A stretch of DNA of 34,795 nt from an uncultured Oscillospiraceae bacterium (GTDB lineage Bacteria; Bacillota; Clostridia; Oscillospirales; Oscillospiraceae). The notes beneath the pieces were generated by a model. That model did no database searches. It was given only the letters and a program-made list of their open reading frames with translations, and was not told the origin of the DNA. The stretch lies in the NCBI GenBank assembly GCA_947587485.1, contig CANPXZ010000006.1, positions 1-34,795 on the forward strand, given 5' to 3'. Below, in pieces: positions 12,153-31,161 of this stretch (positions are counted from its first letter, which is position 1; each line of letters opens with the position of its first letter). Position numbers and translations under genes: made by a program.

Positions 12153-12157
12153 ATATC

Positions 12158-13027: not shown

Positions 13028-13067
13028 AAAATTCCTCCTCTGTACGATCTCAAACGTATTCATTCAG

Positions 13068-14483: not shown

Positions 14484-14494
14484 ATACTTAATCC

Positions 14495-15748: not shown

Positions 15749-15804
15749 TCACGCCACCCCCCTAAGCGCAGGCAGCGTGCAGGAGGCAATGGCGCGAACC
15801 GCTA

Positions 15805-16947
15805 TCAGCTCATAAATGTACCCCCCCCCGTGGTTTCAGGACGCTTGCATATTTCTTCCTCGCCGAGGAAATCGTTGCGAATAATCACTTTAAACTCCTC
15901 CATCGTTCGAGGAACAAAGACTCTCTCAGGATCACGATACAGCCGTTTGACCATTTCGGCTGCGTTCCGCATCGGCACATAGTTGGAGTCTTTATCCTCA
16001 TCCACCAACAGCTCATACAAAAAGATGAGCCTGGGCTCCTTATCGAACAACAGCTTGGGAAACACCTGTGCTGTCGAGCCGGCAGAGATAAGTATATTCT
16101 CGTCAGTGATCTGCTCCACGCATTCCAGCTCCCACATATTGTTGACCGTGTCGATGCTGCAGCCTGAATAATTCTCCGCGCTGTGCCTCGGATGTATGCG
16201 CACGAGCAGGTCTTTATCCGCCTCTTGGAGCAGGCGCAGCACTTCCTGCTCCCTGTCAAACAAACGCCTCTCTTGCAGATTCAGCGGCTGCGACAAATAC
16301 ACCGTTCTGTGCGTCCGATACAACTCATTATCCTGATACTGAAACACATACTTTAATGCCTTTTGTACGTCGACAGATATTTTAGGCAAAAGCTCTATTT
16401 CACAATTTACGGTCCCGTTATACAGGTCTGGACGATATAAGTACAGCTTTTCCGGTGACTGCTGCAGCTTCCCCCCAAAAAACAATACATCAACAACTCT
16501 CACCCGCGGGGATTCATGATCAAGAAAAACATTCTCGCTATAGCTTCCGAGCCCATCATCGAACCCCAAAAACCTTTCCGCCCTGAAAGCACGCTTAATG
16601 CAGAGAAGATCTATCGTCGTACTGGAAGCAAAGACATAACTGTATTGCCTATCCAGGGAAGGCGCCGGAACGACACATCGCTTCATCGTAGATCTCGGGA
16701 AAAATAGATATGAGGCTGCATATAATCTATACAGTCTGTGTTTGACGGACGCCAGTTCCAACAGGTAAACAGTTCGAAAAGCCTTTAGCTCACTGACTCT
16801 TTTCGCGATCTCCCGACTGTTTCGGATATTCACGTTGATATATATATCTGACCTGTCCTTACTGCCCATTACATCGTTCATCACAAAATCAACGACATTG
16901 AAAACTTGCAGCGGCGTAGTACAAATAAAAGCAAAAGAAGGTCCCAT
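15805..16947 (-). CDS. Sialyltransferase-like glycosyltransferase (GT52-like), copy 1, with 3' G9 tract
   Basis: 380 residues from ATG 16947, six bases after AAGGAG. Domain order is as in the paralogue: TTPLQVFNVV start, FDDGLGSY at about residue 130, RIHPRHS, and ISAGSTAQ. It lacks the 50-residue N-terminal extension of copy 2. The gene ends with a G9 tract (15821-15829) followed by TFMS and a stop. One more G would add 23 residues, rich in Ala, Leu and Ile, and place the stop codon immediately before the ATG of copy 2; one fewer G would stop at once. So the tract may tune the tail and coupling to copy 2. A CMP-nonulosonate donor is inferred from neuA in the same operon. Confidence 0.8.
   Translation of the reverse strand: MGPSFAFICTTPLQVFNVVDFVMNDVMGSKDRSDIYINVNIRNSREIAKRVSELKAFRTVYLLELASVKHRLYRLYAASYLFFPRSTMKRCVVPAPSLDRQYSYVFASSTTIDLLCIKRAFRAERFLGFDDGLGSYSENVFLDHESPRVRVVDVLFFGGKLQQSPEKLYLYRPDLYNGTVNCEIELLPKISVDVQKALKYVFQYQDNELYRTHRTVYLSQPLNLQERRLFDREQEVLRLLQEADKDLLVRIHPRHSAENYSGCSIDTVNNMWELECVEQITDENILISAGSTAQVFPKLLFDKEPRLIFLYELLVDEDKDSNYVPMRNAAEMVKRLYRDPERVFVPRTMEEFKVIIRNDFLGEEEICKRPETTGGGTFMS
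15821..15829 (-). repeat. G9 tract at the 3' end of transferase copy 1
   Basis: Nine C on the plus strand. In the gene it is read AC-G GGG GGG GG-T. The three frames give tails of different length: short with G9, shorter with G8, and 23 residues longer with G10, ending at the next start codon. Confidence 0.8.
16013..16353 (-). repeat. 341-bp near-identical duplication, copy B
   Basis: Partner of 14655-14995 (offset 1358 bases), with 7 mismatches seen by eye. Such uneven identity, high in one block and low on both sides, points to gene conversion between the tandem transferase genes and not to a simple recent duplication. Confidence 0.9.
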
Positions 16948-16986
16948 CAACTTCTCCTTATTCTGAGCGTCACATACTCGCTCTTC

Positions 16987-17376
16987 TTATTTAGAAATAA
17001 CTTCGTGAACCTCAATGCCACACCATTGGTCGCGTTTCCCGCAAATCGCCACGCTCGTCTTAAGTCCGCCGGGTTTATCATCATTGATCAGTATTCGTTC
17101 TCCGTATGGTGCCTCAAAGATAATATGGTCATATCGAATACTGTTTTCCTGCAAGAATCTCTCCGTGACATCCCGGAATTCCTCTTTCCGTGACGTGATA
17201 AACAAAATCATGTCCTTCTGCGGTATACCATCTAAAAATGTCTTAGCTCCATCAAGTAACGTATCCTCACCGTCTATCAGATACCCATTGTGTTTGACGA
17301 CCGTTCCATCCAGGTCTAATATCCATGTGTGCCCAAGATCGGATAACCCGAGTATTTTCACAGTTTTATCGTTCAT
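16987..17376 (-). CDS. Small HAD-superfamily phosphatase
   Basis: 129 residues. Motif I is WILDLDGTVV (nucleophile Asp and DxDGT), motif II is ITSRKE (Thr/Ser), and motif IV is LINDDKP. The length is short, as in cap-less HADs found in glycan loci. It overlaps the SIS isomerase gene by 11 bases and follows the nucleotidyltransferase-kinase fusion, so the three probably act in one sugar-phosphate pathway. The order isomerase, phosphatase, kinase/nucleotidyltransferase recalls heptose-type activation pathways, though the families are not the usual ones. The exact substrate is unknown. Confidence 0.8.
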   Translation of the reverse strand: MNDKTVKILGLSDLGHTWILDLDGTVVKHNGYLIDGEDTLLDGAKTFLDGIPQKDMILFITSRKEEFRDVTERFLQENSIRYDHIIFEAPYGERILINDDKPGGLKTSVAICGKRDQWCGIEVHEVISK

Positions 17377-17968
17377 GGCTCAAATAACGCCCAATTGCCC
17401 CACCGGGATGATTGGGTTTAAAATCTTTTTCAAGCGACAGGTCCAGCCTTTTTGCTAATTCCATGACCATCTTCTGTAAAACGATCAGATTCAGAACAGC
17501 CGAATTATTGGGCACTACGTTCCATTGGTCTCCTTCATGCTCCATGTGTATAATCAGCTTCTTTTCCATTCGGTCAGCCAAAATACTATTATCATAGAAA
17601 CTCAGCAGCCACATATTGACTTGCTTGTATTTCTCCAACTGGTCAACCAGATAAATCGACTCAGCTGTCGATCCGCTCTTAGTTAAGATAATAACCATAT
17701 CTCCGGGATGGATCATCCCCATATCTCCGTGAACTGCGGAATTCGTATGCAGGAAGCATGCGTTTAGACCGAGCGATAACATCGTTCCTACAACTTTATC
17801 ACAGATCGACACATTTTTTCCTAAGCCAGATATGATGATTTTTTGACCGGCACGGATCGTCTTCTCGCTCTCTTCAATCAACTGATCCATCTGGGCCTTG
17901 TCAATTGTCTTTAGAGCGTGCATGATGATCTCAATGTCGTCAGAGAAATACGAATAGGCACTTTCCAT
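17366..17968 (-). CDS. SIS-domain sugar-phosphate isomerase (KpsF/GutQ-like)
   Basis: 200 residues. The SIS fold motifs are GLGKNVSI, HGDMGMI, TKSGSTAE, and the C-terminal HPGGAIGRYL, as in arabinose-5-phosphate isomerases (KdsD/KpsF/GutQ). The CBS pair that most of those enzymes carry is absent. The ATG at 17968 overlaps the stop of the upstream gene as TGATG, so translation is coupled. In the known pathway KpsF feeds KDO synthesis, but no KdsA is visible; a related aldose/ketose phosphate for the neighbouring nucleotidyltransferase is an alternative (inference). Confidence 0.85.
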   Translation of the reverse strand: MESAYSYFSDDIEIIMHALKTIDKAQMDQLIEESEKTIRAGQKIIISGLGKNVSICDKVVGTMLSLGLNACFLHTNSAVHGDMGMIHPGDMVIILTKSGSTAESIYLVDQLEKYKQVNMWLLSFYDNSILADRMEKKLIIHMEHEGDQWNVVPNNSAVLNLIVLQKMVMELAKRLDLSLEKDFKPNHPGGAIGRYLSHER

Positions 17969-19470
17969 CAAAGTACCTCCTCTAAGTAATACAGGCCATT
18001 ATAGAATGCACCGCATATCGAGTCATAGTCTTCCCATGCGTATGTCGTCAAGCTGAGCCAGATGATCCCTAACAGGGTTTTCATCTGCTCCTTTGTCACT
18101 TCCCCGTCCAATTGCTCGAAAAAGTACCCCTCCAGGCCCTCCCATTTATTTGAGGCAATCTTGAGTTCTACTTCTTCCTGTTTGATATGCAGCCGGAAAT
18201 TCTTTAAGTTAAATTGGTCATAGTTGCTAAACAGCGAATAATACAGCTTTGCCCAATCATAGGCCACATCACCATATAGAGCAGTCGTTCCAAAATACCC
18301 CCGTGGATCAATAAGCATGGGTATACTATCGTACTGCAAAAGAATATTACTGAACGTACAGTCTCCATGGATCAAATGAAACTCTGCCGGAAAATACTTC
18401 ATTACTAATTCTTCCAGCCGCTTCCGATGTAAAAAGACATTCCGGCATCTGCGCCCATTCACGACCACGATTGGATCGTTAGCAAAGGGAACCAGATCAC
18501 GAACTTTCTGTAGACGATCATAAGTTTTTGCAATATATGCCTCATAATAACTATTTCTGTCTGCCGGGGCACACTTGAGGTTATGGAGGCTTCGCAAGCA
18601 GCCAATCAACTTGCATATAATATCTCTCTTTTCTACTTCCGAAAAGTCAGCATATTCATATATGTTCCTCCCCTCGATCTTCTCCATACAGAGCGGCTCA
18701 TAAGAATATATTTTAGGAGTATTTCTGAAAGTTGAACCCTCCAGAACTTTATACCATGAAACCTCCTTTTTTGCTAACTCCCTACCCTGCTCATCCACAG
18801 CAAGTTTTACTATTCTTCCGTCATGTTCTTCAACACGATTGAACGGTCTGCAACGTCGCCTAGGTAGTTTTTCCCACTCTTGGTATACCCCATATTCACG
18901 GGTGCAATTAAGGTCTTGCTCATCAAAAACATAACCCTTGCTTTGGAGCCATTTCACAAATTCTCCGGAGCCCGGCACATCTGCAAGCAAGGTCTTGTCA
19001 TGAAATATAAATAAACCTGCTACCCCGCGATCTGAGCTCCGTTCTTCTTTAAATCTTCCATTTTCATATTTCCAGCGGCAGGGAAATCCTTTTGAAATAC
19101 CTACAACGTTATTTTTACAATTCGGAAATTCATACTCTTCTGGTAATATCAGGTCGGACCAAATCAACATAAACGATTCTCCGTCCGGCACATACATTAG
19201 CGCTTCCTTCAGTCCTGCACATGTCCCCTTACCGTTTGAAGCATTGACAAGGAAATAATCTACTTCGGCAAATGCATGCAGGTATTTCTCCAGTACGTCA
19301 AACTTGTAATCCCCAACTACAACAAATTTCTTATCTGGGTATTTCCGGAACAAATGAAATATCATCGGTAGGTTATCAATTGGAATCAGCGCTTTCGGCT
19401 TGTTATCTGTGAGCGATTCCATTCTGGTACCTCGCCCGCCGGCTTGGACGATGATGTAGTCAAATTTCAT
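17968..19470 (-). CDS. Sugar nucleotidyltransferase fused to APH/choline-kinase-type kinase
   Basis: 500 residues in two domains. Residues 1-230 are a nucleotidyltransferase: AGGRGTRMESLTDNKPKALI is the activation loop, and IWSDL provides the metal Asp. Residues about 235-500 are an aminoglycoside/choline-kinase fold: IHGDCTFSNIL is the catalytic loop with Asp and Asn, and LIDPRGYFG is the metal-binding segment. So one polypeptide could phosphorylate a small substrate and transfer a nucleotide to a phosphate, as separate LicA and LicC do for choline. It overlaps the next upstream gene by 4 bases and the SIS gene by 1. AT-rich relative to flanking genes. The substrate is unknown. Confidence 0.85.
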   Translation of the reverse strand: MKFDYIIVQAGGRGTRMESLTDNKPKALIPIDNLPMIFHLFRKYPDKKFVVVGDYKFDVLEKYLHAFAEVDYFLVNASNGKGTCAGLKEALMYVPDGESFMLIWSDLILPEEYEFPNCKNNVVGISKGFPCRWKYENGRFKEERSSDRGVAGLFIFHDKTLLADVPGSGEFVKWLQSKGYVFDEQDLNCTREYGVYQEWEKLPRRRCRPFNRVEEHDGRIVKLAVDEQGRELAKKEVSWYKVLEGSTFRNTPKIYSYEPLCMEKIEGRNIYEYADFSEVEKRDIICKLIGCLRSLHNLKCAPADRNSYYEAYIAKTYDRLQKVRDLVPFANDPIVVVNGRRCRNVFLHRKRLEELVMKYFPAEFHLIHGDCTFSNILLQYDSIPMLIDPRGYFGTTALYGDVAYDWAKLYYSLFSNYDQFNLKNFRLHIKQEEVELKIASNKWEGLEGYFFEQLDGEVTKEQMKTLLGIIWLSLTTYAWEDYDSICGAFYNGLYYLEEVL

Positions 19471-20363
19471 GATTTATGTATCTCCGTACTTTTTTTCACC
19501 AATTCCAAACATGTCTGTATCAAAGACGACTCGCTATCCGGACTGTACAGCAAATTGGTCACCGTCTTGAATCCATACAAATCAGATATGTCATTCGAAA
19601 AACGGCCGCTCTCCGCGTCAACATAGTGTTTCTGATGTATGACCGCCAGATCACATTTGCACAGGGCCAGAGCATCGCAGAGCCCGCTTCTGCTGCTGAT
19701 GATCAGGCGAAAATTGGGCGCTGATCTCATCAATTCTGACAACGTCAAATATAACGGCGTCGTGCGATCCAGAGGCTTCTCGGCCCGGTGGACATTGGTG
19801 TATACCGTATAACCCCTGTCTGCGAGTTCATGCGCCAGCTTCTGATAAAACGAAAGGGGGACGTCTTTCATCGAATATGAATACGGCGCCAATAAAACTG
19901 TATCCATATATTCTTTACATTCTACAAACGGTATCTCAGGCACAACTGCTTTTTCTTCGGGCACATACATGACAGAGTTGGAATACGTTTCCGATAAATT
20001 CCCTCCTCTAATGGCTCTCCCCAGCCTATCCCGCCTATGATAAGCATAATAAATTTGATCTTGGTCAAACTTATGAGATATCAATATATACAGAGACAAC
20101 CCTCTCATATCCGCCGCAGATAAAACGATCTTCTCCGCTTTGAGGCTGTACCAGTCCGGTATATCCTGCTGTGCTTCCTTAACAATAACAATGACCTTTT
20201 TGACTTGATTGATCCTTAAAAACTCTTCTGTCAGTCTCATAGCTTGGATCGTGTCTCCTATCCCCCCTGGGTATACGATCTTCAAAGCGTCCTTGTCCGT
20301 ATTTTTCAAGCGATTATAAACATATAATCCCTTTGGAATATATTGTAGCCCAGTAAGTTTCAT
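19467..20363 (-). CDS. Glycosyltransferase-like protein (GT9-like fold, tentative)
   Basis: 298 residues, soluble. The start region IVYPGGIGDTIQAMRLTEEF has the GD loop seen in heptosyltransferase-type (GT9/GT-B) proteins, and the late segment LIISSRSGLCDALALCKCDL resembles the nucleotide-binding segment with a Ser-Gly-Leu motif. The middle is not recognisable to me. It is the first gene of a four-gene AT-rich block with the nucleotidyltransferase-kinase fusion, the SIS isomerase and the HAD protein, so it may transfer the sugar these make. Similar small proteins of unknown function also occur in capsule loci, so the call is tentative. Confidence 0.5.
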   Translation of the reverse strand: MKLTGLQYIPKGLYVYNRLKNTDKDALKIVYPGGIGDTIQAMRLTEEFLRINQVKKVIVIVKEAQQDIPDWYSLKAEKIVLSAADMRGLSLYILISHKFDQDQIYYAYHRRDRLGRAIRGGNLSETYSNSVMYVPEEKAVVPEIPFVECKEYMDTVLLAPYSYSMKDVPLSFYQKLAHELADRGYTVYTNVHRAEKPLDRTTPLYLTLSELMRSAPNFRLIISSRSGLCDALALCKCDLAVIHQKHYVDAESGRFSNDISDLYGFKTVTNLLYSPDSESSLIQTCLELVKKSTEIHKS

Positions 20364-20402
20364 ACGGCAGCATCCTTTAAAATCGTGTTGATCGTTTGCG
20401 CG

Positions 20403-21614
20403 TTATTCCAAAACCACTGTCCGTGTCAGACGGCTGACAAGCTCGTACCCATCCCAAATAAGGTCAAAGTCCATGGTGCTCCCAACGGGCACGATGCGGT
20501 CGATGCCCCGGACGCCGGCCTCCAGCAGCGGGCGGAATATCTCCTTGTCCCCCAGATAGGAAATGGTCTGGCAGCGGTCATCATTGCACAGAGGCGCCAG
20601 CTCTAAGATGTCGTCACAGTCATACTCAAAAAAGTATCCGGAATTGTCCTTCAGGTCCATGATCTCATCGGTAAGCGCCGGCACATGGACCCGCACCAGC
20701 AGGTTATCCCTGTGGGGCTCCACCCGGACACCCTCCTGGCTCACCGCGGCAAGATAGGCGCTGGTCAGTTTATTGACGCCCTGGATGGGCTGAAAGGTAT
20801 ACTTTTCCTGTACCAGGTCCGACAGTTCTCCCCAGAAGGCGGCCTTGGCCTCCTCCTTGCGGCGGCCTGTCCAGATGACCATACGGGGGCTGGTGCAGGC
20901 GTTCTGGTCGGTGAGATAGGTATCGTTATAAAACTGCTCCGCGATGCGGTCCCTGTCCTCCCGGGCAAGATAGCTGTCGGCGTCGATCACCGCCAGAGAA
21001 AACCTGTCCGCGAAAGCCACCTCAGCGCCTCTGGGCGGCAGCGGGGACTTTCGCACCTCTGCAATGGTGGCGTCGCCGCCCCATATGATGCGGGTGTCGG
21101 CCATGGCGGACAGCGCATCGTTGACGGCCCTGTCCCGGCCATACCGTACAAGACAGACGCGTTTTCTCATCTCTCCATGATCCGGCATGGCCAGCACGCC
21201 GGACAGGGCCCGGTCGATAATGGTGACTTGGGGGAAGTCCTTGCTGGGCACCCTCACGATATTGGCGTTGCCGGTGAGCAGCCCCGCCGTCAGAGAATAA
21301 GCGTAGTTCACCGGCACGTTGGACGGAGCGATGTGGAACGCCACGCCCCGGCCAAGCCGGAACGGGCCGCCCTCCCCACAGAACCTCTCCTTCAGCTTTT
21401 TCGTGGAGGCGCTCCGTATCCAAAAGGCATAGGTGACCACATCGGGATAGGCCTTTGCCTCCCGGTCTGCCAAAAGCGCCTTTGCCACGGCGTTCAGAAA
21501 CTCAAGCACACGCCGGTCAAAGGGCGGCAGCGCCGGCACACATGGCATGGCGGCGATATCCGCACTCCCCACCAGATATGTGATGCCGCTCAGATCACGC
21601 AAACTTTGCCGCAT
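20403..21614 (-). CDS. luxC: LuxC-type acyl-CoA/acyl-protein reductase
   Basis: 403 residues. The motif HIAPSNVPVNYAYSLTAGLL followed by GNANIVRVPSKD and the catalytic Cys240 in DQNACTSPR are those of LuxC, which reduces a thioester-bound acyl group to an aldehyde with NADPH. It overlaps the LuxE-like gene by 20 bases (a TTG at 21602 is a lesser alternative start), so the two are made together, as in lux operons. Here there is no luciferase. Two linked lux-type genes with an ACP and a thioesterase indicate reduction of a specific acyl chain to an aldehyde (inference). Confidence 0.9.
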   Translation of the reverse strand: MRQSLRDLSGITYLVGSADIAAMPCVPALPPFDRRVLEFLNAVAKALLADREAKAYPDVVTYAFWIRSASTKKLKERFCGEGGPFRLGRGVAFHIAPSNVPVNYAYSLTAGLLTGNANIVRVPSKDFPQVTIIDRALSGVLAMPDHGEMRKRVCLVRYGRDRAVNDALSAMADTRIIWGGDATIAEVRKSPLPPRGAEVAFADRFSLAVIDADSYLAREDRDRIAEQFYNDTYLTDQNACTSPRMVIWTGRRKEEAKAAFWGELSDLVQEKYTFQPIQGVNKLTSAYLAAVSQEGVRVEPHRDNLLVRVHVPALTDEIMDLKDNSGYFFEYDCDDILELAPLCNDDRCQTISYLGDKEIFRPLLEAGVRGIDRIVPVGSTMDFDLIWDGYELVSRLTRTVVLE

Positions 21615-22686
21615 AGGTATCGCTGCACCCCCGTATCTCCGCGTTTTTCAGCCGTCCGTCGATCTTGAAATACTTTCCCTTCCGGCCACAGGGGCAATCA
21701 TCCTCTCCCAGCAGCACGCCCTCGTCCTCCGTCAGCAGAGAGTGCCCCGGATAGGACTCCGGGATGGTGGACAGCACTTGGATGATGCCCTGCTCCCCAA
21801 CTGCGCATATGCCGAAGTCCCGCGGCCGGCGCATGATCACATCGGAGAATACGCTGGCGTGGAGATGGCCGCACTCGCACTGCATATAGATGCACCCTGT
21901 CTGCTCCACCATGCCGTAATAATCGTGCACCCGGTCGATGCCGCACACCGACTGGAGCCTGTCATGGAATTCCTGGGGGCTCACAGCTTCACTGGCCAGC
22001 TTCTTCCACCCGCCGCCGTGGATGAGGATGCCCCGGGAAAGGTCAAAAGTAACGCCCTGCTCCTTCAGGCGCGCCAACTCTTTATAGAAGTGCTGCCAGA
22101 CCATGAAGGTAAACCCGAACAGGAGGATATCCTGTCCCTGGAACCTTTCCAGAAACTCTCTCAGCCCATCCACATCCAGGCACATATCGTCATTCAACGC
22201 ATATATCTTTTTTGCCCCGAAGATGGAAAAGCCCAGAATGCCGGCGCCCCGGGCGGAGAACATATTTCTATCCTTCACCACCGAGGGACAGTCCAAAATG
22301 ATCATAGGCAGCCGGGAGGCGCCCAAAAAGTCCGAGACGATCTTCACCATGGTCCTCTGCTGGTTGGCGGAGGTGGTCCTGTCCAGGTATATCCGGGACA
22401 CTGCCTGCCCCGTCGTGCCGGAAGAGGTCATAGTCTTTACCACGTCCTCCTGGGGCACGCTTTTGAGGGTGAGCTCCTTGAAAAGCCGCACCGGCAGGAA
22501 CGGAAGGTCCTCATAGCCAGATACTTCCTTGCTGTCATAGCCGACGCTTTCCAGCATACGGCGGTACTCCGGGCAGCAGGCCCGATGGTGCTCCGTCAGC
22601 TCTGTCAACCGCTCGGTCAAAATGGCGTGCTTTTCCTCCCGCGCCAGCGAATAGGGCGGTATTTGCAAAAGCTCCTCAAATGTCAT
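21595..22686 (-). CDS. luxE: LuxE-type acyl-protein synthetase
   Basis: 363 residues. AMP-forming ligase fold with TSSGTTGQAVS as the phosphate loop, the FGFTFMVWQHF segment, HGGGWKKL and HDYYGMVEQTG, all characteristic of the LuxE family. A C-terminal CECGH...CPCGRKGKYFKI segment with several Cys may bind zinc. LuxE activates a fatty acid as acyl-AMP, carries it on a Cys and passes it to LuxC. It overlaps the thioesterase gene by 11 bases, which parallels luxD-luxE-luxC order of function: a thioesterase frees the acid, LuxE activates it and LuxC reduces it. Confidence 0.9.
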   Translation of the reverse strand: MTFEELLQIPPYSLAREEKHAILTERLTELTEHHRACCPEYRRMLESVGYDSKEVSGYEDLPFLPVRLFKELTLKSVPQEDVVKTMTSSGTTGQAVSRIYLDRTTSANQQRTMVKIVSDFLGASRLPMIILDCPSVVKDRNMFSARGAGILGFSIFGAKKIYALNDDMCLDVDGLREFLERFQGQDILLFGFTFMVWQHFYKELARLKEQGVTFDLSRGILIHGGGWKKLASEAVSPQEFHDRLQSVCGIDRVHDYYGMVEQTGCIYMQCECGHLHASVFSDVIMRRPRDFGICAVGEQGIIQVLSTIPESYPGHSLLTEDEGVLLGEDDCPCGRKGKYFKIDGRLKNAEIRGCSDTYAAKFA

Positions 22687-23377
22687 GCTCTGTCAGCCTC
22701 TCCTTGATCGTGTCCGCCGCTTCCCGCTCATGCTCCCGCAGGAAGAAATGGCCTCCCTCAAATTCCAGGATGTCGCATCCGCCAACAAATACCCTTCGCC
22801 ATTTTTCCACGTTCTTACGGGGTATGTCCGCCGGCGAGAAGAGTACAGTGGCCGGGATGCGCGTCTCATATTCCAGCCGCCCGAAGTCATAGCCCATCAT
22901 CAGTTCATAGTCAGCCCGGTAGATGGGCAGATAGACGCGCCAAAAAGCGGCGCTGTTGACAAGCTTTTCCGGCAGGCCTCCAAAACGGACGGTCCAGCGT
23001 TTGACCGCCTCGTCGGTGTCTGCGTCATGCTCCTGCACGACCAGGATGGGGCAAGGCCCATGGGACGCCAGAAACACATGGGCAGGCAGCGTAACTTCTT
23101 TCCTTGCAAGGATGAGCTTTGTCACCTCGGCAGCCGCTATGGCCCCCATGCTGTAGCCCAACAGCGCATAGGGCTCTTCCTGACCGGCCCCGGCCTTCAT
23201 CTGGTCATACATATCAAAGACCAGCTCGTCAAAATTCCTGTAAAACGCTTCATGCCGCCGCGCCATATGCCCGGCGTATTCCAGCTTCACCAGCTCGATG
23301 TCCGGCCAAAGATAAGGCTCGAGCCCGCTGAAAAAAGACCCGCTCCCGCCGATAAAAGGAAAGCAGAAAAGCCGCAT
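22676..23377 (-). CDS. Type II thioesterase (GrsT-like)
   Basis: 233 residues, alpha/beta-hydrolase. The N-terminus LFCFPFIGGSGSFF is the oxyanion-hole segment, GYSMG gives Ser76 as nucleophile, and the late GGHFF supplies the catalytic His; the order is that of thioesterases working with carrier-protein systems. GGGAGGGG precedes ATG 23377. In the lux system LuxD frees the fatty acid; this protein could do that from the operon's ACP or could correct mis-loaded carriers. Confidence 0.88.
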   Translation of the reverse strand: MRLFCFPFIGGSGSFFSGLEPYLWPDIELVKLEYAGHMARRHEAFYRNFDELVFDMYDQMKAGAGQEEPYALLGYSMGAIAAAEVTKLILARKEVTLPAHVFLASHGPCPILVVQEHDADTDEAVKRWTVRFGGLPEKLVNSAAFWRVYLPIYRADYELMMGYDFGRLEYETRIPATVLFSPADIPRKNVEKWRRVFVGGCDILEFEGGHFFLREHEREAADTIKERLTEHDI

Positions 23378-23390
23378 GGCCCCCTCCCGC

Positions 23391-24803
23391 TCACTCGTAA
23401 TACTTTGCCAGCTCCTTATAGAGCGTTTTTCCCGCGTCGTTTTTAGGTATCTCCTCGATGACGATCACCTGGAACGCCGCGTGGTTGAGTCCCGTCTTGC
23501 CCACGATAAAGTCCTTCACCTCGTCCGCAAGAGCCCCGTTCGTCACAAACAGGTACATGTGGTCGTCCACGCCGGCGCTGGCACAGTCCAGCCCTTCGAA
23601 CCGGCCCTTGATGAGCCTGTCCACCTCGTCCAGATTGACCCGGTTGCCGTAGATCTTCAAAAACCGCTTTTTCCGGCCCACGATGTAGTAATACCCGTCC
23701 TCGTCGAACTGGGCCATATCCCCTGTCTCCAGCACACCGTGGTGCTCGTCGCCTTTGGAAAGGTCCTCGCCCCGCTCCGCGTAGCCCAGGGTCACGTTGG
23801 GCCCTTCATAGACCAGCTCTCCAGTCACATGGGGCTCCGTGACCGTCCCGCCGCTGGCGTCCACCAGACGGAACTTGCCGCCAGGGATCGCGATGCCCAT
23901 GGAGCCGCAGCGCTCCACCGCCTTGTCCGCCGGCAGATAGCCCATGCGGGCGGTGGCTTCGCACTGGCCGTACATGACCACGAACTTTTTGCCTTTCTCC
24001 GCGGCGTACTCGGCGAATCTCTTATGCAGCTCCGGCGTCAGCTTGCCCCCTGCCTGGGTCATGGTCCGCAGGCTGGGCAGGTCCATGCGGAAAAAGCGAA
24101 GCCTCTCCAGCATCTCGTAGGTATAGGGCACACCGCCGAAGGAAGTGGCCTTCTGCTCCCTGAAAAACTGCCAGAACTCCCGCTGCATCACGCCCTTTTC
24201 CGTGATCAGCAGCGTCGCCCCCACTAACAGATGGCTGTTGATGATGGACAGGCCGTAGGTATAGTTCATCGGTAGGGTGGTGATGGGCCTTTCCGTCTCG
24301 TCCAGCTCCAGATACTCCACGATGGACCGGGCGTTGGCCAGGATGTTGGCATAGCTCTGACGGACGAATTTGGGGCTGCCCGTGGAGCCGGAAGTGGTCA
24401 GCAGAAGGCCCAGCTCCGGGAACAGAGGGTATTCCCTGGGATACCCCGTCCGTAGCAGTCGATAGCCATAGGAGCTGTATACGCTCTGCATGCCGTCAAA
24501 GCTCTCCGCCTGTTCCTCCGGGATCCATAAGTACTTGGGCCCATAGGCCAACAGCAGACCGTCCAGCAGCGGCCGCTCCAGATGGGCGTTCAGCAGCACT
24601 GGCACGATACCTGCATTCAGGAATGACACATATCCCACCACAGAGCCAATGGTGTTCGTGCAAAGGCAAAACACCAGGCACCGGCCGCCTGCCGCGGCGG
24701 CGACGCGCTCCCCTTCCGCGGCAAGTTCTATATAGGTGACCGCGTTGCCGTACTCATCCCTCACGGCAGTGTGGTCATGGAATTTTTCCAGGTCCCAGAC
24801 CAT
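23391..24803 (-). CDS. AMP-forming acyl ligase (ANL superfamily)
   Basis: About 470 residues. A3 loop TTSGSTGSPKFVRQS, A5-like MYGQCEATARMGYL, the ETGDMAQFDEDGYYYIVGRKK hinge region and the C-terminal Lys in PKNDAGKTLYKEL are all present, so the enzyme should be active. Such ligases load an acid on CoA or on an ACP. The ATG at 24803 is chosen for the GGGGAAGG just upstream; an ATG at 24836 has no site. It stands next to the thioesterase and the two-domain dehydratase. An ACP (30027-30263) in the same operon is the likely acceptor (inference). Confidence 0.88.
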   Translation of the reverse strand: MVWDLEKFHDHTAVRDEYGNAVTYIELAAEGERVAAAAGGRCLVFCLCTNTIGSVVGYVSFLNAGIVPVLLNAHLERPLLDGLLLAYGPKYLWIPEEQAESFDGMQSVYSSYGYRLLRTGYPREYPLFPELGLLLTTSGSTGSPKFVRQSYANILANARSIVEYLELDETERPITTLPMNYTYGLSIINSHLLVGATLLITEKGVMQREFWQFFREQKATSFGGVPYTYEMLERLRFFRMDLPSLRTMTQAGGKLTPELHKRFAEYAAEKGKKFVVMYGQCEATARMGYLPADKAVERCGSMGIAIPGGKFRLVDASGGTVTEPHVTGELVYEGPNVTLGYAERGEDLSKGDEHHGVLETGDMAQFDEDGYYYIVGRKKRFLKIYGNRVNLDEVDRLIKGRFEGLDCASAGVDDHMYLFVTNGALADEVKDFIVGKTGLNHAAFQVIVIEEIPKNDAGKTLYKELAKYYE

Positions 24804-24852
24804 GTTACCTTCCCCTTTCCCGTAGTGTTCATCCAATTGAGCTCTGAAAACC

Positions 24853-25815
24853 CTATCGGCCCATCCGGGGCAGCGGCACAGAATTCCGGAGCACCAAAGT
24901 GAATGCCGCTCTACAGATCAGCATTCCATCCGCAGAGCAAATCATGCCTCCGTATTTGGCTATCCCGCGCCTGTAGGACCTCAGCTCAGCCAGCGTCATG
25001 ATCGTATCTCCTGGCCTTACAGCGCCAAATACCTCGCATGAATCACAACTTTGGAAGATCATTTTCTTTTCAGTTATTTCCGGCATTGTGGTGACCGCAA
25101 AGACGCCGGTCTGCATCAGCGCTTCCAGCAGTATGCACTCCGGCATACTGGGGTCGCCCGGATAATGCATCTTAAAGAACCAGTCCAGAGTGGATGCTGT
25201 CTTTATTCCCCGCACACGTCTATCGCCGCCGACCGAAACACGATCAATAAACCTGTACTCCATGGGATCGGCCAGAAAATCATCCATATCCTTATAACCG
25301 ATCGAGACCTCAGGCGCCACCTCTCCCCAATCGATCTTTTCGCGTACTTTTACGGCCTTCTCCGGCAGCGCGAGCGTAAAATCCATAGAGCAGATCAATT
25401 CTCCAGGCTCACCATCGTCCCGCCTCACCTCTCCGCGAAAAGAAGCGATCCCCTCACTGAATGACCGGAGAGATACATAGGTACGGAATGTGTCCCCGGG
25501 ACGCACAGGCTTATAGATGTGCATGGACCTGCATCCCTGAAACATCATGATCTTATCTTGGATCTCCGGCATGGTCGTGACCACCAGCGTCCCAGTCTGC
25601 TGCAGCGCCTCCATCAGAAAGACGCCTGGCATGACCGGATCTCCCGGAAAATGTATTTTGAAATACCAGTCCTGTGATGAAGCGGCCTTGGTCCCGCTGG
25701 CCTTCTTCCCCGGAATGACCTCACACTTATCGATAAAACTGTACTCAAGCGGAATGGCTGAATACCTGGACATATTTCTCCAATCGACTATGATCGGCCC
25801 ATTCTCTTCGCCCAT
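24853..25815 (-). CDS. Two-domain FabZ/hotdog dehydratase
   Basis: 320 residues from the ATG at 25815 (GGAGG upstream). Two FabZ-like hotdog domains in tandem: domain 1 has HFPGDPVMPGVFLMEALQQTG (cut: catalytic His55 and Glu69); domain 2 has HYPGDPSMPECILLEALMQTG (His217 and Glu231). Both keep the His and the Glu of FabZ-type 3-hydroxyacyl-ACP dehydratases. FabZ is normally one domain that dimerises; fused pairs occur in polyunsaturated fatty acid and polyketide systems. A separate single FabZ is encoded at 29557-30030, so the operon has three hotdog domains. The fusion could act on a different chain length or on a different position. Confidence 0.88.
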   Translation of the reverse strand: MGEENGPIIVDWRNMSRYSAIPLEYSFIDKCEVIPGKKASGTKAASSQDWYFKIHFPGDPVMPGVFLMEALQQTGTLVVTTMPEIQDKIMMFQGCRSMHIYKPVRPGDTFRTYVSLRSFSEGIASFRGEVRRDDGEPGELICSMDFTLALPEKAVKVREKIDWGEVAPEVSIGYKDMDDFLADPMEYRFIDRVSVGGDRRVRGIKTASTLDWFFKMHYPGDPSMPECILLEALMQTGVFAVTTMPEITEKKMIFQSCDSCEVFGAVRPGDTIMTLAELRSYRRGIAKYGGMICSADGMLICRAAFTLVLRNSVPLPRMGR

Positions 25816-25893
25816 TGTCAGTTTCCTCCAGATCTCATACATGTCAAACTGGACGTAAACATGACAAGGGGCAAATGCTCACTCAGTCATCGT

Positions 25894-26988
25894 CTACGTC
25901 TGTATTTTCCTGGCGCCCTCAGGCTGCCCGCTCAGGCCGGCATCCTCCTGCCCGGAAACGATATAATCCTCTTTTTGAAATAACCCCCCCCCGCTGACTA
26001 AATCGAACATGGAGGCGCTGCGGCCCAGATACTTCTCCCGGAACTTCCGGTTCTGCGCCGCCAGACAGACGGGGGACGTCTCCCCAAAGTATTTGATGCT
26101 GAATCCGTAATCGACGATCTCCTTCAGGGACTGTTTCTTCACGTTCCCGATGCTGATATCGATGAACGGACATGGCTGAACGTCGCCAAGCGGGGTGACG
26201 AACAGCCTGTTGACGGACCAGCACCCGGAAAGGCGTTCCCTGTTCGGATCATAAAAGTCCCACGTATCAAAGGTCGTATTTTTATATTTTTTCCGCAGCT
26301 CGCTGAATATCCTCATGTCCTCCGCATCCATATAATTATCCTTCCATACGCCATAGGGCATCGCCAGGATAAAGTAGACGCCGTAATCGTTCTCCTGCAG
26401 ATAATCCAAAAACTCGTACAGCTCGGGAGAATGGGAATTGTGGTGCCCGAAAATAGGCTGCGCCCAGGAGTCCATCCCGGCAGCCTTTACGTTTTTCAGC
26501 GCCTCCAGCGCCTTTTTGTGCGATCCCTTCACATGGCGGGACTGATCGTGCTCGGCCTCGTTGAGGCTGGAGATACTCACGCCCACGCTGTCCAGACCCG
26601 CCGCGGCCAGGCGCTCCGCCACCTCCGGCGTCATGAACCAACCGTTGGTGATCAGCACCATATGGAACCGCTCCGGCCCGAAGGTGTTGATGACCTCGAT
26701 GAACGAGTCCACATTGACGAGAAGCTCACCGCCCTGGAACACGATCTCCCAGATGCCGAGTTCATCTGCCTCATCCGCCAGTTTTTTGATCTCCTCAGTG
26801 GAAAGATGCTCCTTGTTGTATTTGACCTCGTTCTGCTCATAGCAGAAATCGCATCTGAAGTTGCAGATGTTATGATGGACAAAGGTCAGGCTTCTTGGAA
26901 TGTTTCCGATCTGATACCCGTTTTTCCGCAGCTTGCGATAAAAGCTGTTCACCTTTCCAACGACGATCGGTTTATTCATCACGCCCAT
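25894..26988 (-). CDS. Radical SAM/SPASM enzyme with variable C-terminal tail
   Basis: 364 residues. CNFRCDFC at about 42-49 holds the 4Fe-4S cluster; the motif HHNICNFRCDFCYEQ, then FQGGELL, GVSISSLNEAEHD and the late CWSVNRLF and PCPFIDI Cys pair indicate a SPASM-type enzyme, as used for peptide, cofactor or aminosugar modification. The gene ends with a G9 tract (25984-25992) coding VSGGGLF. Only the last 25 residues lie beyond it; losing or gaining one G replaces that tail with another of 16-24 residues and leaves the catalytic part intact. AGGAGAG precedes the ATG. It follows the split transketolase genes. The substrate is unknown. Confidence 0.88.
   Translation of the reverse strand: MGVMNKPIVVGKVNSFYRKLRKNGYQIGNIPRSLTFVHHNICNFRCDFCYEQNEVKYNKEHLSTEEIKKLADEADELGIWEIVFQGGELLVNVDSFIEVINTFGPERFHMVLITNGWFMTPEVAERLAAAGLDSVGVSISSLNEAEHDQSRHVKGSHKKALEALKNVKAAGMDSWAQPIFGHHNSHSPELYEFLDYLQENDYGVYFILAMPYGVWKDNYMDAEDMRIFSELRKKYKNTTFDTWDFYDPNRERLSGCWSVNRLFVTPLGDVQPCPFIDISIGNVKKQSLKEIVDYGFSIKYFGETSPVCLAAQNRKFREKYLGRSASMFDLVSGGGLFQKEDYIVSGQEDAGLSGQPEGARKIQT
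25984..25992 (-). repeat. G9 tract near the 3' end of the radical SAM gene
   Basis: Nine C on the plus strand, read as GGG GGG GGG in the present frame. All three frames stay open for a further 17 to 26 codons, so slippage would exchange tails and not abolish the enzyme. Confidence 0.8.
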
Positions 26989-27003
26989 ATATCTGTCTCT
27001 CCT

Positions 27004-27975
27004 TCATTCTTGTAAAGCATCCCATATCCGCTCTGTCACAGCGTCCGCCGTCAGGCCGCACTGCTCCAGAAGGTATGGGTAACTTCCGTTTTTCAAATAG
27101 CCGTCCGGCGTTCCAAGAGTCATCACCCTCGGACGGACGTCTCCTCCGGCGACGGTTTGAGCCACGGCCGTGCCAAGACCGCCGATCACGCTGTGCTCTT
27201 CCAGCGTCACGATCAGCCGCGATCGCTCCACGGCCCGGCGCACCGCCTCAACGTCCAACGGCTTGATCGTATGCATATCCAGCACCGCGCATCCAATGCC
27301 GCGATCGCTCAGACGGCCGCTTACCTCCACAGCCACGCGCACCATGCTCCCTGCTGCGATAACGGTCACGTCCTCCCCCGTGCAGAGGGAGATGGCCTTT
27401 CCGATCTCAAAATCGATGTCGTCGGTGTGCACGCCGGAGGTCCCGGCCTCGCCGGTGAGACGGATATAGACCGGCCCCTCATAGGCCGCCGCGGCCTCTA
27501 CGGATTTTACGACCTCCACGCAGTCGGCCGGCGACAGGATCACCACCCCCGGCACCGTCCGCATGAGGGCCACATCGTCCACCCCAAAATGGGAATTGCC
27601 CAGGCCGCCTACGGACACACCGCTGCTCAGGCCCACCGTCTTGATGTTCAGGTGCATATAGCCCATGTTCATGCGGACTTGGTCCGCGCAGCGCATCGTG
27701 ATGAACGGCGCGAAGGACGACGCAAAGGGGACGAGCCCTTCCTTGGCCAGCCCCGCGGAGACGCCGATCAGGTCCTGCTCCGCGATGCCCACATTCAGAT
27801 ACCGCTCCGGGGCCTCGGCCATCAGCCGTCCCAGCCCGGACGAGACGCCAAGGTCGGCGGACAGGGCGTATACCCTCTCATCCCGTCCGATAAGCTCCGC
27901 CAGGGCCAGGCCATAGACCGCCCTCGGGCCCAGGCGGCTCCACTGGCGGATGTTTCTCGCTGTGATCTCCATCAT
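27004..27975 (-). CDS. Transketolase-like, C-terminal subunit
   Basis: About 323 residues. Contains the pyrimidine-binding and C-terminal transketolase domains: the segment RAVYGLALAELIGRDERVYA with GIAEQDL (the conserved Glu that activates thiamine diphosphate), FITMRCADQVRMN and the SPADCVEV linker. The start ATG 27975 overlaps the stop of the N-terminal subunit gene (ATGATGG) with GGAGG upstream. Transketolase halves encoded separately are known in several glycan and secondary-metabolite loci and join to one active enzyme that moves a two-carbon ketol unit. A branched-chain sugar or an acyloin on the acyl aldehyde are possible products (inference). Confidence 0.9.
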   Translation of the reverse strand: MMEITARNIRQWSRLGPRAVYGLALAELIGRDERVYALSADLGVSSGLGRLMAEAPERYLNVGIAEQDLIGVSAGLAKEGLVPFASSFAPFITMRCADQVRMNMGYMHLNIKTVGLSSGVSVGGLGNSHFGVDDVALMRTVPGVVILSPADCVEVVKSVEAAAAYEGPVYIRLTGEAGTSGVHTDDIDFEIGKAISLCTGEDVTVIAAGSMVRVAVEVSGRLSDRGIGCAVLDMHTIKPLDVEAVRRAVERSRLIVTLEEHSVIGGLGTAVAQTVAGGDVRPRVMTLGTPDGYLKNGSYPYLLEQCGLTADAVTERIWDALQE

Positions 27976-28817
27976 GCTTCCGCCTCCAACTCCTGACACG
28001 CCTGTTCATAGAGCTTGTCCGTCAGGCGGTTATGATGCCACTCCCCGTTGTTCTCCATAAAGGATATGCCATGGCCCTTGACCGTGCGGCCAATGATCAC
28101 CCGGGGCCGGTCGATCCGCGGCGCCGTATAGGCTTCCAGTGCCGCCATCACGTCATGCCCGTCGATCTCCCGCACTTCCCATCCAAAGCTCTCCCATATT
28201 TTCTTCAAGTCCATATGGACGATCTGGGCGCTGCTGCCGTCGCTCTGCATATCGTTGTCATCGATGATCGCCGTCAGGTTGTCCAGCTTCCACTGAGCAG
28301 CCAGCATGGCCGCCTCCCAAACGGCGCCCTCGTTGCACTCGCCATTTCCTATGAGTACATACACGTCGTGCTTCTGCCCTTTGAGCTTGGCGGCTTTCGC
28401 CAGGCCGACGGCCATGCCGATGCCCTGCCCAAGAGAACCGTTGGAGCTCTCGATGCCCAGCTCTGGCGCCATAGTCGGATGGGCTCCCAAAGCCGTTCCA
28501 TCCCTTTGGAAGGTATCCAGGAGCTGCCCGGAGATATAGCCGCACTCCGCCAGCACCGCATAAAAGGCCAGCACGCAGTGTCCTTTGCTCAGGATGAACC
28601 GGTCCCTGTCCGGCCAAAGCGGATCGGACGGGTCGTGATCCATTACAGCCATGTACAGCACGGTCAGCAGTTCCGCCATGGAAAGCGAACCACCCAGGTG
28701 GGTCCGCTGACCACAGGAATTGGCCATGGAGAGCATACGCTTTTTCACGCTCAGCGCGGCGCTCCGGAGCTCCGCCTCCCGGATGTATCCGTCCTCTGCC
28801 CCTGCATTTTGTCTCAT
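27972..28817 (-). CDS. Transketolase-like, N-terminal subunit (thiamine diphosphate binding)
   Basis: 281 residues. SKGHCVLAFYAVLAECG provides the substrate-binding His, and IGNGECNEGAVWEAAMLAA with the later Asn in DDND is the GDG-N thiamine-diphosphate motif of the family, with Asn in place of the middle Asp in GDG. HGHD...IIGRTVKGHGISFME completes the usual set. It overlaps the FabG gene by 4 bases (ATGA) and the C-subunit gene by 4 bases, so all are coupled. Confidence 0.9.
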   Translation of the reverse strand: MRQNAGAEDGYIREAELRSAALSVKKRMLSMANSCGQRTHLGGSLSMAELLTVLYMAVMDHDPSDPLWPDRDRFILSKGHCVLAFYAVLAECGYISGQLLDTFQRDGTALGAHPTMAPELGIESSNGSLGQGIGMAVGLAKAAKLKGQKHDVYVLIGNGECNEGAVWEAAMLAAQWKLDNLTAIIDDNDMQSDGSSAQIVHMDLKKIWESFGWEVREIDGHDVMAALEAYTAPRIDRPRVIIGRTVKGHGISFMENNGEWHHNRLTDKLYEQACQELEAEA

Positions 28818-29560
28818 CGCATACCTCCATCTACCCGCAGGACCTGACCGGTCACATAAGAGGAACGATCGGACAGAAGGTACACGACCGCATCCGCCAC
28901 TTCCGCCACCGTTCCCATCCGCTTGAGCGCAGTCACCGCCAAAACCTGTTCCGCCGTCTCCGAGGCGATCTGCCGGCCCATATCGGTATCGATGATCCCG
29001 GGAGCCACAGCGTTGACACGGATGCCAAAGGGCGACAGCTCGCTGGCAAGCTTTTTTGTGGCGCCGATCACCGCCGCCTTGCTGGACACATAGCCCAGCG
29101 GCGCCGGCTCGCCCTCCAGGGCCGCGATCGAGGCGATATTGACGATACTGCCCGCCTTGTTCCGCATGAGGTTTTTCAAAAGCCTCTGGGTGAAAAAGAG
29201 GGGCCCGAAAAGGTTGACCTCAAACGTCTCCCTGAGCTGCTGGATATCGGTCATGGAAAGGGCATACAGGGGTCCCACGACGCCCGCGTTGTTGACGATA
29301 CCGCTGACAGGCAGCTTATCTGCCAGGATCAGCGAAGCGGCAGCTTTGATGCTCTCTTCTTCCGAGACGTCCAGTTCCACGGCCCTCGCCGGGAGACCTG
29401 TCTCCTCCTCCAGTGATCTCAGCCACGCATGCGCCGCGCTGTCCACTGTGCGCATACACGCCCAAACGCCGGCACCGCCGCGGACACAGGCCTCCGTGAT
29501 GGCTTTGCCTATACCGCGGTTGGCGCCTGTTATAACGACATTCTTTCCTGCGAGCATCAT
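28814..29560 (-). CDS. FabG-like 3-oxoacyl-ACP reductase (SDR)
   Basis: 248 residues. Classical SDR: TGANRGIGKA cofactor loop near the N-terminus, NNAG, active-site Ser in NIASIAALEG, Tyr-Lys in GYVSSKAAV, and the end SSYVTGQVLRVDGGMR. The length and the PG motif after NAVAPGIIDTDM match FabG. It would reduce a 3-oxoacyl-ACP to the 3-hydroxyacyl form. It overlaps the FabZ gene and the transketolase N gene. Substrate specificity cannot be read from sequence. Confidence 0.88.
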   Translation of the reverse strand: MMLAGKNVVITGANRGIGKAITEACVRGGAGVWACMRTVDSAAHAWLRSLEEETGLPARAVELDVSEEESIKAAASLILADKLPVSGIVNNAGVVGPLYALSMTDIQQLRETFEVNLFGPLFFTQRLLKNLMRNKAGSIVNIASIAALEGEPAPLGYVSSKAAVIGATKKLASELSPFGIRVNAVAPGIIDTDMGRQIASETAEQVLAVTALKRMGTVAEVADAVVYLLSDRSSYVTGQVLRVDGGMR

Positions 29561-30030
29561 TCCATTCCTCTCTTCATACCCGGCATATCATCCAGGACAG
29601 CCAAGACAAAATCCGCCGCGCAGCAAAGCGTCTCGCCAACGTGTATCTCTCCGCTGATAGCGGCGACGCCGTGTCTGAATCTGTGTATCTGCGTGCTCAC
29701 GCTGATGGTGTCCCCCGGTCGGATATGTCCGGAGAACCTGGCGCCCGTGATCTGCGCGATATTGGTCGTTTTATCCTTGTAGCCATCCAGCAGCTTGATG
29801 GCCAGAGCGCTCGTCTGGAACAGTGTCTCCAGCTGCAAAACGCCTGGCATCATTGGGTCGCCGGGGAAATGGCACGCAAAGAACCACGCGTCTGCCGGGA
29901 TCGTCCTCTCCATCCAACTGCCTTTTCCCGGCTCTACCAGGACGTCATCGACAAATAAGAGGGGATCCCGATTTTTCAGGACCTGATAGATGCCCTCCCG
30001 GTCCAGTCTGATCGGTGCGTTGTCCGTCAT
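29557..30030 (-). CDS. FabZ-type 3-hydroxyacyl-ACP dehydratase
   Basis: 157 residues, one hotdog domain. HFPGDPMMPGVLQLETLFQT carries the catalytic His54 and Glu68. PLLFVDDVLVEPG near the start is the usual FabZ N-terminal pattern. It overlaps the ACP gene by 4 bases (ATGA). Its three neighbours (ACP, FabG, FabZ) give a reduction-dehydration set; no ketosynthase or enoyl reductase is present in the window. Confidence 0.9.
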   Translation of the reverse strand: MTDNAPIRLDREGIYQVLKNRDPLLFVDDVLVEPGKGSWMERTIPADAWFFACHFPGDPMMPGVLQLETLFQTSALAIKLLDGYKDKTTNIAQITGARFSGHIRPGDTISVSTQIHRFRHGVAAISGEIHVGETLCCAADFVLAVLDDMPGMKRGME

Positions 30031-30263
30031 ATCTCAACGTGATATTTCTTCAGTATCTCGATCCCTTTCTGATAACTGGAGAAGTCGATGATGTCATCGG
30101 TCTCCATCTCGATGTCGAACGCATCCTCCAACTCAGCGACAAGGCTCATATGCCCAACGCTGTCCCACTCAGGGATGTCCTGATACTTCAAGTCATCCAG
30201 CTTCTGCTCGTCTGCGTTGAGCGCAGTCACGAAGGCCTGCCTGTACTTTTCAAGATTTGTCAT
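30027..30263 (-). CDS. Acyl carrier protein
   Basis: 78 residues, acidic, with the phosphopantetheine site DSVGHM (Ser35; the common form is DSL). AAGGAG precedes the ATG. It is a dedicated carrier for the acyl module and probably needs a host phosphopantetheinyl transferase, which is not in the window. It heads the subset ACP-FabZ-FabG-transketolase. Confidence 0.9.
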   Translation of the reverse strand: MTNLEKYRQAFVTALNADEQKLDDLKYQDIPEWDSVGHMSLVAELEDAFDIEMETDDIIDFSSYQKGIEILKKYHVEI

Positions 30264-30461: not shown

Positions 30462-31124
30462 TTAAAATACCTTGGAACCGTCTTTATTCTTCATGGGTCT
30501 GGCAGGATCTCCCATCGCGATGACGTTGTCCGGAATGTCCCGCTGTACCATTGAGCCCATTCCGATGATCGTATCGCTGCCGATCTTTTTCCCCTCACGT
30601 ACGGCCACATGCACAGCAATATATGTCCTGTCCCCGATCACGACGTTGCCGGCAAGGCATGAAAATGCTGCAAGCACGGTATTATTGCCGATCACGGTAT
30701 CATGTCCAACGGACACATATGGGTGGAACCAAGTATTCGCTCCGACCGTTACGTCCGGATCGAAATATACCCCATGCTGGACAGTCACGCCCTCAGATAA
30801 CACAGTGCTGTCCGGAACATATACAGATGGATGCACGATCGTTGCCAGAGAATACCCCTTTCCCTTGACTTTGTTGAACAGTTTTTCTCTGATGGCGGGT
30901 TCGCCAACAGAGATGGTAAACTGACACTCCTCCGGCGAATACCTGGCCATAACGTCCTCAGCAGCCAGGACAGGTACTCCATGGATCTGCCGATCCTCTC
31001 CGTGTCGTTCAGCGTCCTCCACGAAATATATACTCTCCCAGCAGGGGTCGGCCGCCTGGATCTGCCGGATCGTTTCCAAGATCGCTCTGCCCGCACCACC
31101 AGCGCCGTAAATCGCAAGTACCAT
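30462..31124 (-). CDS. NeuD/PglD-like sugar O/N-acyltransferase
   Basis: 220 residues. The N-terminal half is a small Rossmann-like domain (IYGAGGAGRAILETI) and the C-terminal half a left-handed beta helix (hexapeptide repeats such as VTVGANTWFHPYVSVGHDTV and IGNNTVLAAF), as in NeuD and PglD, which acetylate sialic acid or UDP-bacillosamine. His residues in HPYVSVGHD suit the catalytic base. The ATG at 31124 has GGGGGT upstream. It would acetylate or acylate an amino sugar in this pathway; an acyl-ACP donor from the neighbouring module is possible. Confidence 0.88.
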   Translation of the reverse strand: MVLAIYGAGGAGRAILETIRQIQAADPCWESIYFVEDAERHGEDRQIHGVPVLAAEDVMARYSPEECQFTISVGEPAIREKLFNKVKGKGYSLATIVHPSVYVPDSTVLSEGVTVQHGVYFDPDVTVGANTWFHPYVSVGHDTVIGNNTVLAAFSCLAGNVVIGDRTYIAVHVAVREGKKIGSDTIIGMGSMVQRDIPDNVIAMGDPARPMKNKDGSKVF

Positions 31125-31161
31125 GATTACCCCCAATTAAAACAGAAGTCTCATCCTCTCA

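Follow-up and report, generated by a model that had tools for sequence, protein, structure and literature searches.

A split transketolase with an altered acceptor site joined to a LuxE/LuxC-type core in a surface-glycan locus of an uncultured Oscillospiraceae bacterium

The O-antigen cluster of Vibrio cholerae O1 includes the RfbKLMNO set, with a carrier protein, an acid ligase and a LuxE-domain protein, and 2,4-dihydroxybutanoic acid is said to be activated by the ligase, with CoA or the carrier RfbK as acceptor (PMC4772473, PMC12208996). The flagellin glycosylation islands of Enterobacteriaceae (PMC4875605) and Aeromonas (PMC7874193) carry a group of genes for an acyl carrier protein (ACP), FabG, an AMP-forming ligase, LuxE and LuxC, and in Shewanella oneidensis an operon of NeuB-like, thiamine diphosphate (ThDP)-enzyme and FabG-like genes, sfmABCDE, is needed for modification of flagellin with a nitrogen-free C9H16O7 unit (PMC3765264). 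Here we describe a cassette in which an ACP-ligase-LuxE-LuxC core is accompanied by a split transketolase, encoded on contig CANPXZ010000006.1 of an uncultured Oscillospiraceae bacterium (GCA_947587485.1). The window that we analysed is the entire contig of 34,795 bases, and its source is a metagenome-assembled genome (MAG) of 2.54 Mb that is 74% complete.

The cassette is a run of eleven genes at 20403-30263, all on the minus strand and backed by Pfam or NCBIfam matches (Table 1), and every gene named there in the initial annotation was found in its place. In reading order they encode ACP, a FabZ-like dehydratase, a FabG-like short-chain dehydrogenase/reductase (SDR), the N- and C-terminal transketolase subunits (TK-N and TK-C), a radical SAM/SPASM enzyme, a double-hotdog dehydratase, an AMP ligase, a thioesterase, LuxE and LuxC; where neighbours do not overlap, the gaps between them are 13-51 bp, which makes a single operon likely. 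Like RfbKLMNO as described, the cassette brings a carrier protein, an acid ligase and LuxE/LuxC-type proteins together in a surface-glycan cluster. By this likeness of description, RfbL/RfbK/RfbN would be the nearest precedent for the core, and the window pathway may be regarded as an extension of the route proposed for RfbKLMNO. Genes for a transketolase, a radical SAM enzyme or hotdog proteins are not known from the V. cholerae O1 cluster. The window also has, in a glycan locus, the same five gene types as the flagellin islands, and the link to such loci drawn in the initial annotation is a real one (PMC4875605, PMC7874193). Unlike the window, the island groups have no reported transketolase, include FabZ in one strain only and are linked to flagellin, whereas the window genes scanned include no flagellin or Maf gene and instead encode Wzx, Wzy and polysialyltransferase-like proteins. 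The sfm operon resembles the window locus in having NeuB-like, ThDP-enzyme and FabG-like genes; it differs in that its ThDP enzyme is of the acetolactate synthase (ALS) type rather than a transketolase, and the five-gene operon as described is without LuxC, LuxE and ACP. The view that no described pathway has this gene set, taken in the initial annotation, holds for the full set but not for the ACP/ligase/LuxE-LuxC core, since a route of this kind has been proposed for V. cholerae O1. Our literature search returned no paper tying LuxE to transketolase in polysaccharide loci. The cassette is real and well conserved, and its core has a precedent.

A LuxC search of genome contigs recovered 66 loci, nearly all labelled Clostridia. 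The constant core of ACP, AMP ligase, LuxE and LuxC stands in about 60 other loci, about half of which also have the thioesterase, a recurrence that argues against a chance arrangement. When the gene set was sought in other genomes, as had been proposed at the outset, the nearest relative with the same full cassette was L004, and the core with a split transketolase was also found on Rhizobium plasmids, where ACP, ligase, LuxE, LuxC, FabZ, SDR and the transketolase are grouped with a NeuD-like gene that is split in two and lies just 5' of ACP. Deinococcus and Ponticoccus showed only ACP-FabG-ligase-LuxE-LuxC, which is also the gene set of the flagellin islands (PMC4875605, PMC7874193), so the aldehyde core is broader than its coupling to transketolase. 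The nearest relatives of the window LuxC, at 82-84% identity, come from MAGs labelled Oscillospiraceae or Acetatifactor. LuxC of this type (E < 1e-50) occurs in 9 of 391 class-level genomes and LuxE of this type in 2 of 25 genus members, a rarity that marks the locus as accessory. The radical SAM enzyme has close homologues in only two other cassettes (L004 and L034). A gene of the lactate/malate-dehydrogenase family, which the window does not have, lies directly 3' of LuxC in about 20 loci (L008, L010, L025, L036 and others). L025 belongs to Butyrivibrio proteoclasticus P6B7, which, like Rhizobium beringeri, is a carrier that has been cultured.

The active sites of these proteins are intact. 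The nucleophilic Cys of LuxC (Cys240 in the window) is present in 64/64 homologues and the acylated Cys of LuxE (Cys354 in the window) in 69/69. The earlier suggestion that the lux-type genes imply an aldehyde is supported. The attachment serine of ACP (56/56), the A10 Lys of the AMP ligase (60/60) and the Ser and His of the thioesterase (29/29) are equally constant, the Ser/Tyr/Lys of FabG are invariant among the homologues compared, and three FabZ-type His...Glu pairs are evident in the window sequence itself. In five loci LuxC and LuxE are fused into one protein.

With residues numbered by alignment to E. coli TktA, the window TK-C carries the changes H461S, D469L and R520G. All 30 cassette TK-C proteins are without H461 (S, T, G or A is found there), D469 (mostly L) and R520 (G, once E), and they keep E411 (30/30) and H473 (29/30). 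Among 22 transketolase-family proteins from relatives, a comparison set with one DXS-like protein and two altered transketolases from loci without LuxC, H461 is present in 12, D469 in 14 and R520 in 19 (Fisher tests against the cassette proteins, 3e-6, 2e-7 and 2e-11, respectively). In most cassette TK-C proteins, R-L-T-G takes the place of the R-F-G-R or similar motif of housekeeping split enzymes, and the Rhizobium cassette enzyme has G/L/H/G at 461/469/473/520. The window TK-N retains H26, H66 and H100, the last of which is also found in nearly all cassette enzymes. Phosphate binding by TktA has been linked to H461, and the variants H461S, R520V, D469T/A/S and D469T/R520Q show better activity on propionaldehyde (PMC3657141); D469T gives a more hydrophobic surface (PMC10787763). 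The pyruvate-using DXS has Phe in place of H100 (PMC7661550). The changed acceptor residues and the retained H100 together suggest that the donor supplies a C2 ketol and that the acceptor is an aldehyde without phosphate and probably without a 2-hydroxyl group; a DXS-like pyruvate donor is disfavoured by the H100 of the window. The idea that the transketolase uses an aldehyde, already put forward in the initial annotation, is thus strengthened by the altered site, as it is by the ketoreductase or isomerase-like gene alongside. The acyloin-type unit proposed there would better be described as a 1,3-dihydroxy-2-ketone, since H100 is of the transketolase and not the DXS type (PMC7661550). The closest solved relatives, the two chains of the split transketolase of Carboxydothermus hydrogenoformans (6yak, 6yaj), share the two-chain fold and the catalytic and donor residues; unlike the window enzyme, they retain TktA-type acceptor residues, and they are not described in a Lux-type cassette (PMC7661550). 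A subgroup of cassette TK-N proteins, comprising that of the window and about a dozen others, has GNG in place of the metal-binding GDG motif. The window's genome also encodes a second split transketolase with a similar signature, G/L/H/G, at a locus without LuxC (G000:C27; L100: 12222-14002); it is flanked by genes for a UDP-sugar dehydrogenase and an epimerase, and its product may be a branched sugar.

Other carbon-joining enzymes can occupy the place of the transketolase. Roughly half of the loci encode a split transketolase, and most of the rest have a NeuB-like or YerE-like enzyme instead. Among the 46 loci with enough upstream DNA to be counted (L063, with short upstream DNA, was left out), a split transketolase is present in 19, and a NeuB-like enzyme, an ALS/YerE-like ThDP enzyme or both of these in another 19; the two kinds of module never share a locus, and 8 loci lack either kind, one of the 8 having ketoacyl-ACP synthase III (KASIII). 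The overlap expected by chance was 7.8 (hypergeometric 5e-7, uncorrected for relatedness). Among solved structures, that of the YerE-like JanthE (8rph; PMC12188165) is closest to the ALS-like enzyme, and the window differs from loci of that type in having a transketolase in the slot. A genome of the window's own genus (G003) carries the YerE-like/NeuB version of the cassette, with three FabZ genes. Beside TK-N, 24 of 29 transketolase loci have FabG and 4 have a protein with the L-fucose isomerase C-terminal domain, never both; in the 29th, TK-N starts at the edge of the available DNA. Either neighbour could act on a transketolase-type ketol; the fucose-isomerase-like protein gave no PDB sequence match, and its role is read from the Pfam C-terminal domain alone. 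We tentatively put forward, while leaning slightly to the side of doubt, a general and so far unrecognised scheme for building surface-glycan units, in which an aldehyde made by a constant acid-reducing core of the Lux type is extended by one of several exchangeable modules, namely a naturally acceptor-switched transketolase, a NeuB-like phosphoenolpyruvate synthase or a YerE-like ThDP enzyme, into new hydroxyacyl or sugar-like units without a ketosynthase.

For the window itself, the explanation that we favour, at about even odds, is that the module is an aldehyde-and-carboligase pathway making an unusual hydroxylated building block for a surface glycan, and not a fatty-acid pathway. The proposal builds on what we observe: the gene set and its conservation, the intact active sites, the loss of transketolase acceptor residues, the exclusion between modules and the reductase- or isomerase-like gene beside the transketolase. 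The starting material would be a small carboxylic acid, perhaps a dicarboxylic one activated at one end; LuxE would adenylate it and hold it as a thioester, which LuxC would reduce to the aldehyde; the split transketolase would move a two-carbon ketol from hydroxypyruvate or a ketose phosphate onto this unphosphorylated aldehyde, giving R-CHOH-CO-CH2OH. The FabG-like SDR may reduce the ketone of the ketol product, and the AMP ligase and ACP may activate a carboxyl group of this unit. Its modification may fall to the hotdog dehydratases and the radical SAM enzyme, the thioesterase may clear wrong loads, and the adjacent NeuD-like protein, or a GNAT or MBOAT transferase, would join the unit to a sugar or glycan. 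We infer the identity of the substrate and the order of the steps, as well as everything that follows the ketol, from the roles of the hotdog and radical SAM enzymes to the final attachment. The carboxyl missing from the transketolase product would be accounted for if the starting acid were dicarboxylic, and the weak similarity of the AMP ligase to AmcH (a 2-oxoglutaryl-ACP ligase) and to oxalate- and malonyl-CoA ligases is compatible with such an acid. In gene clusters of the naphthyridinomycin and quinocarcin type, a ketol is transferred to a carrier protein; this is less likely here because the cassette has an aldehyde source.

Several points weigh against the aldehyde-and-carboligase pathway. 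The transketolase product carries its own carboxyl only if the starting acid has two. The cassette transketolases belong mostly to one clade, so that the loss of acceptor residues may have been a single ancient event (the substituted residues vary, and none has reverted in our sample), and two altered transketolases stand outside LuxC loci. The exclusion statistic ignores common descent among the loci, and L063, outside the 46 counted, carries both transketolase and NeuB. FabG-bearing cassettes without a carboligase exist in Deinococcus, Ponticoccus and some Clostridia, so FabG may have another substrate, and the notion that it serves the carboligase only is weakened. One competing explanation, which we find possible but rather doubtful, takes the transketolase off the main line: ligase, ACP, FabG and FabZ would edit one acid, LuxE and LuxC with a reductase would make a short hydroxyacid, as has been proposed for V. 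cholerae O1, a NeuD, GNAT or MBOAT protein would attach it and the transketolase would supply a separate ketose or sugar precursor. Such acyl decoration would suit the NeuD-like gene directly 5' of ACP, the NeuD- or GNAT-type genes in 36/61 core loci (21 of the 36 with a DegT aminotransferase as well), the MBOAT gene upstream of KASIII in L004, the occurrence of minimal cassettes without transketolase and the RfbL/RfbK precedent (PMC12208996), but it leaves unexplained the loss of acceptor residues, the position of the transketolase inside the operon beside FabG or the isomerase-like gene and its replacement by other carboligases. It is unlikely, in our estimation, that the transketolase adds a ketol to the keto group of a nucleotide sugar, giving a branched sugar, with the Lux-type core making an unrelated acyl group for the same glycan. 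The setting of the second transketolase of the genome would favour this, as would the YerE-like enzymes, which add two-carbon units to ketones and fill the transketolase slot elsewhere (PMC12188165); however, cassette transketolases are tied to LuxC, LuxE and ACP in two phyla, and no 4,6-dehydratase was seen among the window genes scanned.

The ketosynthase question bears on a further alternative, in which the genes form a local fatty-acid synthesis system or one that makes a long-chain aldehyde as in luminescence. The initial annotation had noted the lack of a ketosynthase, and none was found in the window or in the rest of the available genome, which is 74% complete. As a trait of the cassette family the claim fails: L004, the nearest relative with the same full cassette (TK-C 85% identical), is immediately preceded by genes for MBOAT, KASIII and a second ACP, and KASIII adjoins the cassette in a few other loci, so that freedom from ketosynthase is a property of the window's copy. 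The L004 arrangement suggests ACP-based condensation there, which is a further point against the carboligase pathway and which, with the presence of ACP, FabG and FabZ, speaks for fatty-acid synthesis. Against the latter, a true FabF-type ketosynthase (E < 1e-50) was found in 2/13 genomes of the genus and KASIII above cut-off in 0/13, members more than 90% complete included; the window's lineage is mostly without condensing enzymes of type II fatty-acid synthesis. A local copy of that system is rejected on these grounds, and a luminescence aldehyde is rejected on the scores of LuxC (44.6 vs 750 bits) and LuxE (64.8 vs 550 bits) against luminescence equivalog cut-offs; no luciferase was seen among the window genes scanned. 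We regard this whole alternative as disfavoured and very improbable. Most genomes of the genus (G001-G012), even those more than 90% complete, yielded no FabF-/FabH-type condensing enzyme, and this scarcity suggests dependence on outside fatty acids. In L034, a protein of PF03060, the family that includes the FabK enoyl reductases, lies between two FabZ genes.

If the aldehyde-and-carboligase pathway is correct, it would represent a transketolase naturally switched to unphosphorylated aldehydes by the same kind of change as in the directed evolution of TktA, and a modular pathway by which gut Clostridia and Rhizobium vary their surface glycans. The ACP/LuxE/LuxC genes of flagellin islands would also become understandable in chemical terms, and biocatalysis would gain natural carboligases.

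Table 1. Genes of the cassette and two flanking genes of the locus, in reading order
Feature	Coordinates	Strand	Evidence
NeuD/PglD-like acyltransferase, candidate for joining product to sugar	30462..31136	-	TIGR03570 172.7 bits vs cut-off 160.8
Acyl carrier protein	30027..30263	-	weak NCBIfam ACP matches; no Pfam match
Single-domain FabZ-like dehydratase	29557..30030	-	PF07977 3e-18
FabG-like SDR, proposed ketol reductase	28814..29560	-	PF13561 2e-57; under FabG equivalog cut-offs
Split transketolase N-terminal subunit (TK-N)	27972..28817	-	PF00456 1e-44; nearest PDB 6yak 2e-64
Split transketolase C-terminal subunit (TK-C), altered acceptor site	27004..27999	-	PF02779/PF02780 (pyr/C 5e-33); nearest PDB 6yaj 1e-61
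Radical SAM/SPASM enzyme	25894..26988	-	PF04055 1e-25, SPASM 7e-7; nearest PDB BlsE, weak, 1.6e-10
Double-hotdog FabA/FabZ-like dehydratase	24853..25842	-	PF07977 two stretches 1.5e-29; NF000582 133.6 bits vs cut-off 113
AMP-forming acid ligase, proposed ACP loader	23391..24836	-	PF00501 6e-43
Type II thioesterase-like protein	22676..23377	-	PF00975 1e-29
LuxE-like acyl-protein synthetase	21595..22686	-	PF04443 1e-54
LuxC-like acyl reductase, predicted aldehyde maker	20403..21614	-	PF05893 3e-26
Nucleotidyltransferase-APH kinase fusion, possible product activator (context, not core)	17968..19470	-	NTP_transf_3 + APH domains

The cassette is preceded, in reading order, by genes for a bi-domain dehydrogenase, a PaaK-like ligase and the NeuD-like transferase. 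On the 3' side of LuxC are a gene of unknown function (19467-20363), the nucleotidyltransferase-APH kinase fusion, a KdsD-like SIS isomerase, two polysialyltransferase-related genes and Wzy, followed by NeuB-, KdsC- and NeuA/PseF-like genes, more sugar genes and a Wzx-like flippase. The gene at 19467-20363 gave no credible match in a PDB sequence search, and its predicted structure has a mean pLDDT (predicted local distance difference test) of 49. The label "sialic-type" is fair but loose, as the NeuB-, KdsC- and PseF-like genes fall under curated equivalog cut-offs. The polysialyltransferase Pfam match, seen in one of the two related genes, is slightly under its cut-off. A scan for promoters and terminators gave fewer sites than in shuffles. 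The region at ~12000-20400, which includes Wzy, the polysialyltransferase-like genes and the kinase fusion, has a G+C content of 0.39-0.48, vs 0.55-0.62 in the Lux-type cassette, and the two blocks were therefore probably acquired separately. The tandem polysialyltransferase-like paralogues at 14495-15748 and 15805-16950 have near-identical C-terminal halves and differing N-terminal halves, a pattern that may reflect recent duplication or gene conversion. A short open reading frame at 3966-4226 resembles, by eye, a C-terminal remnant of a polysaccharide deacetylase.

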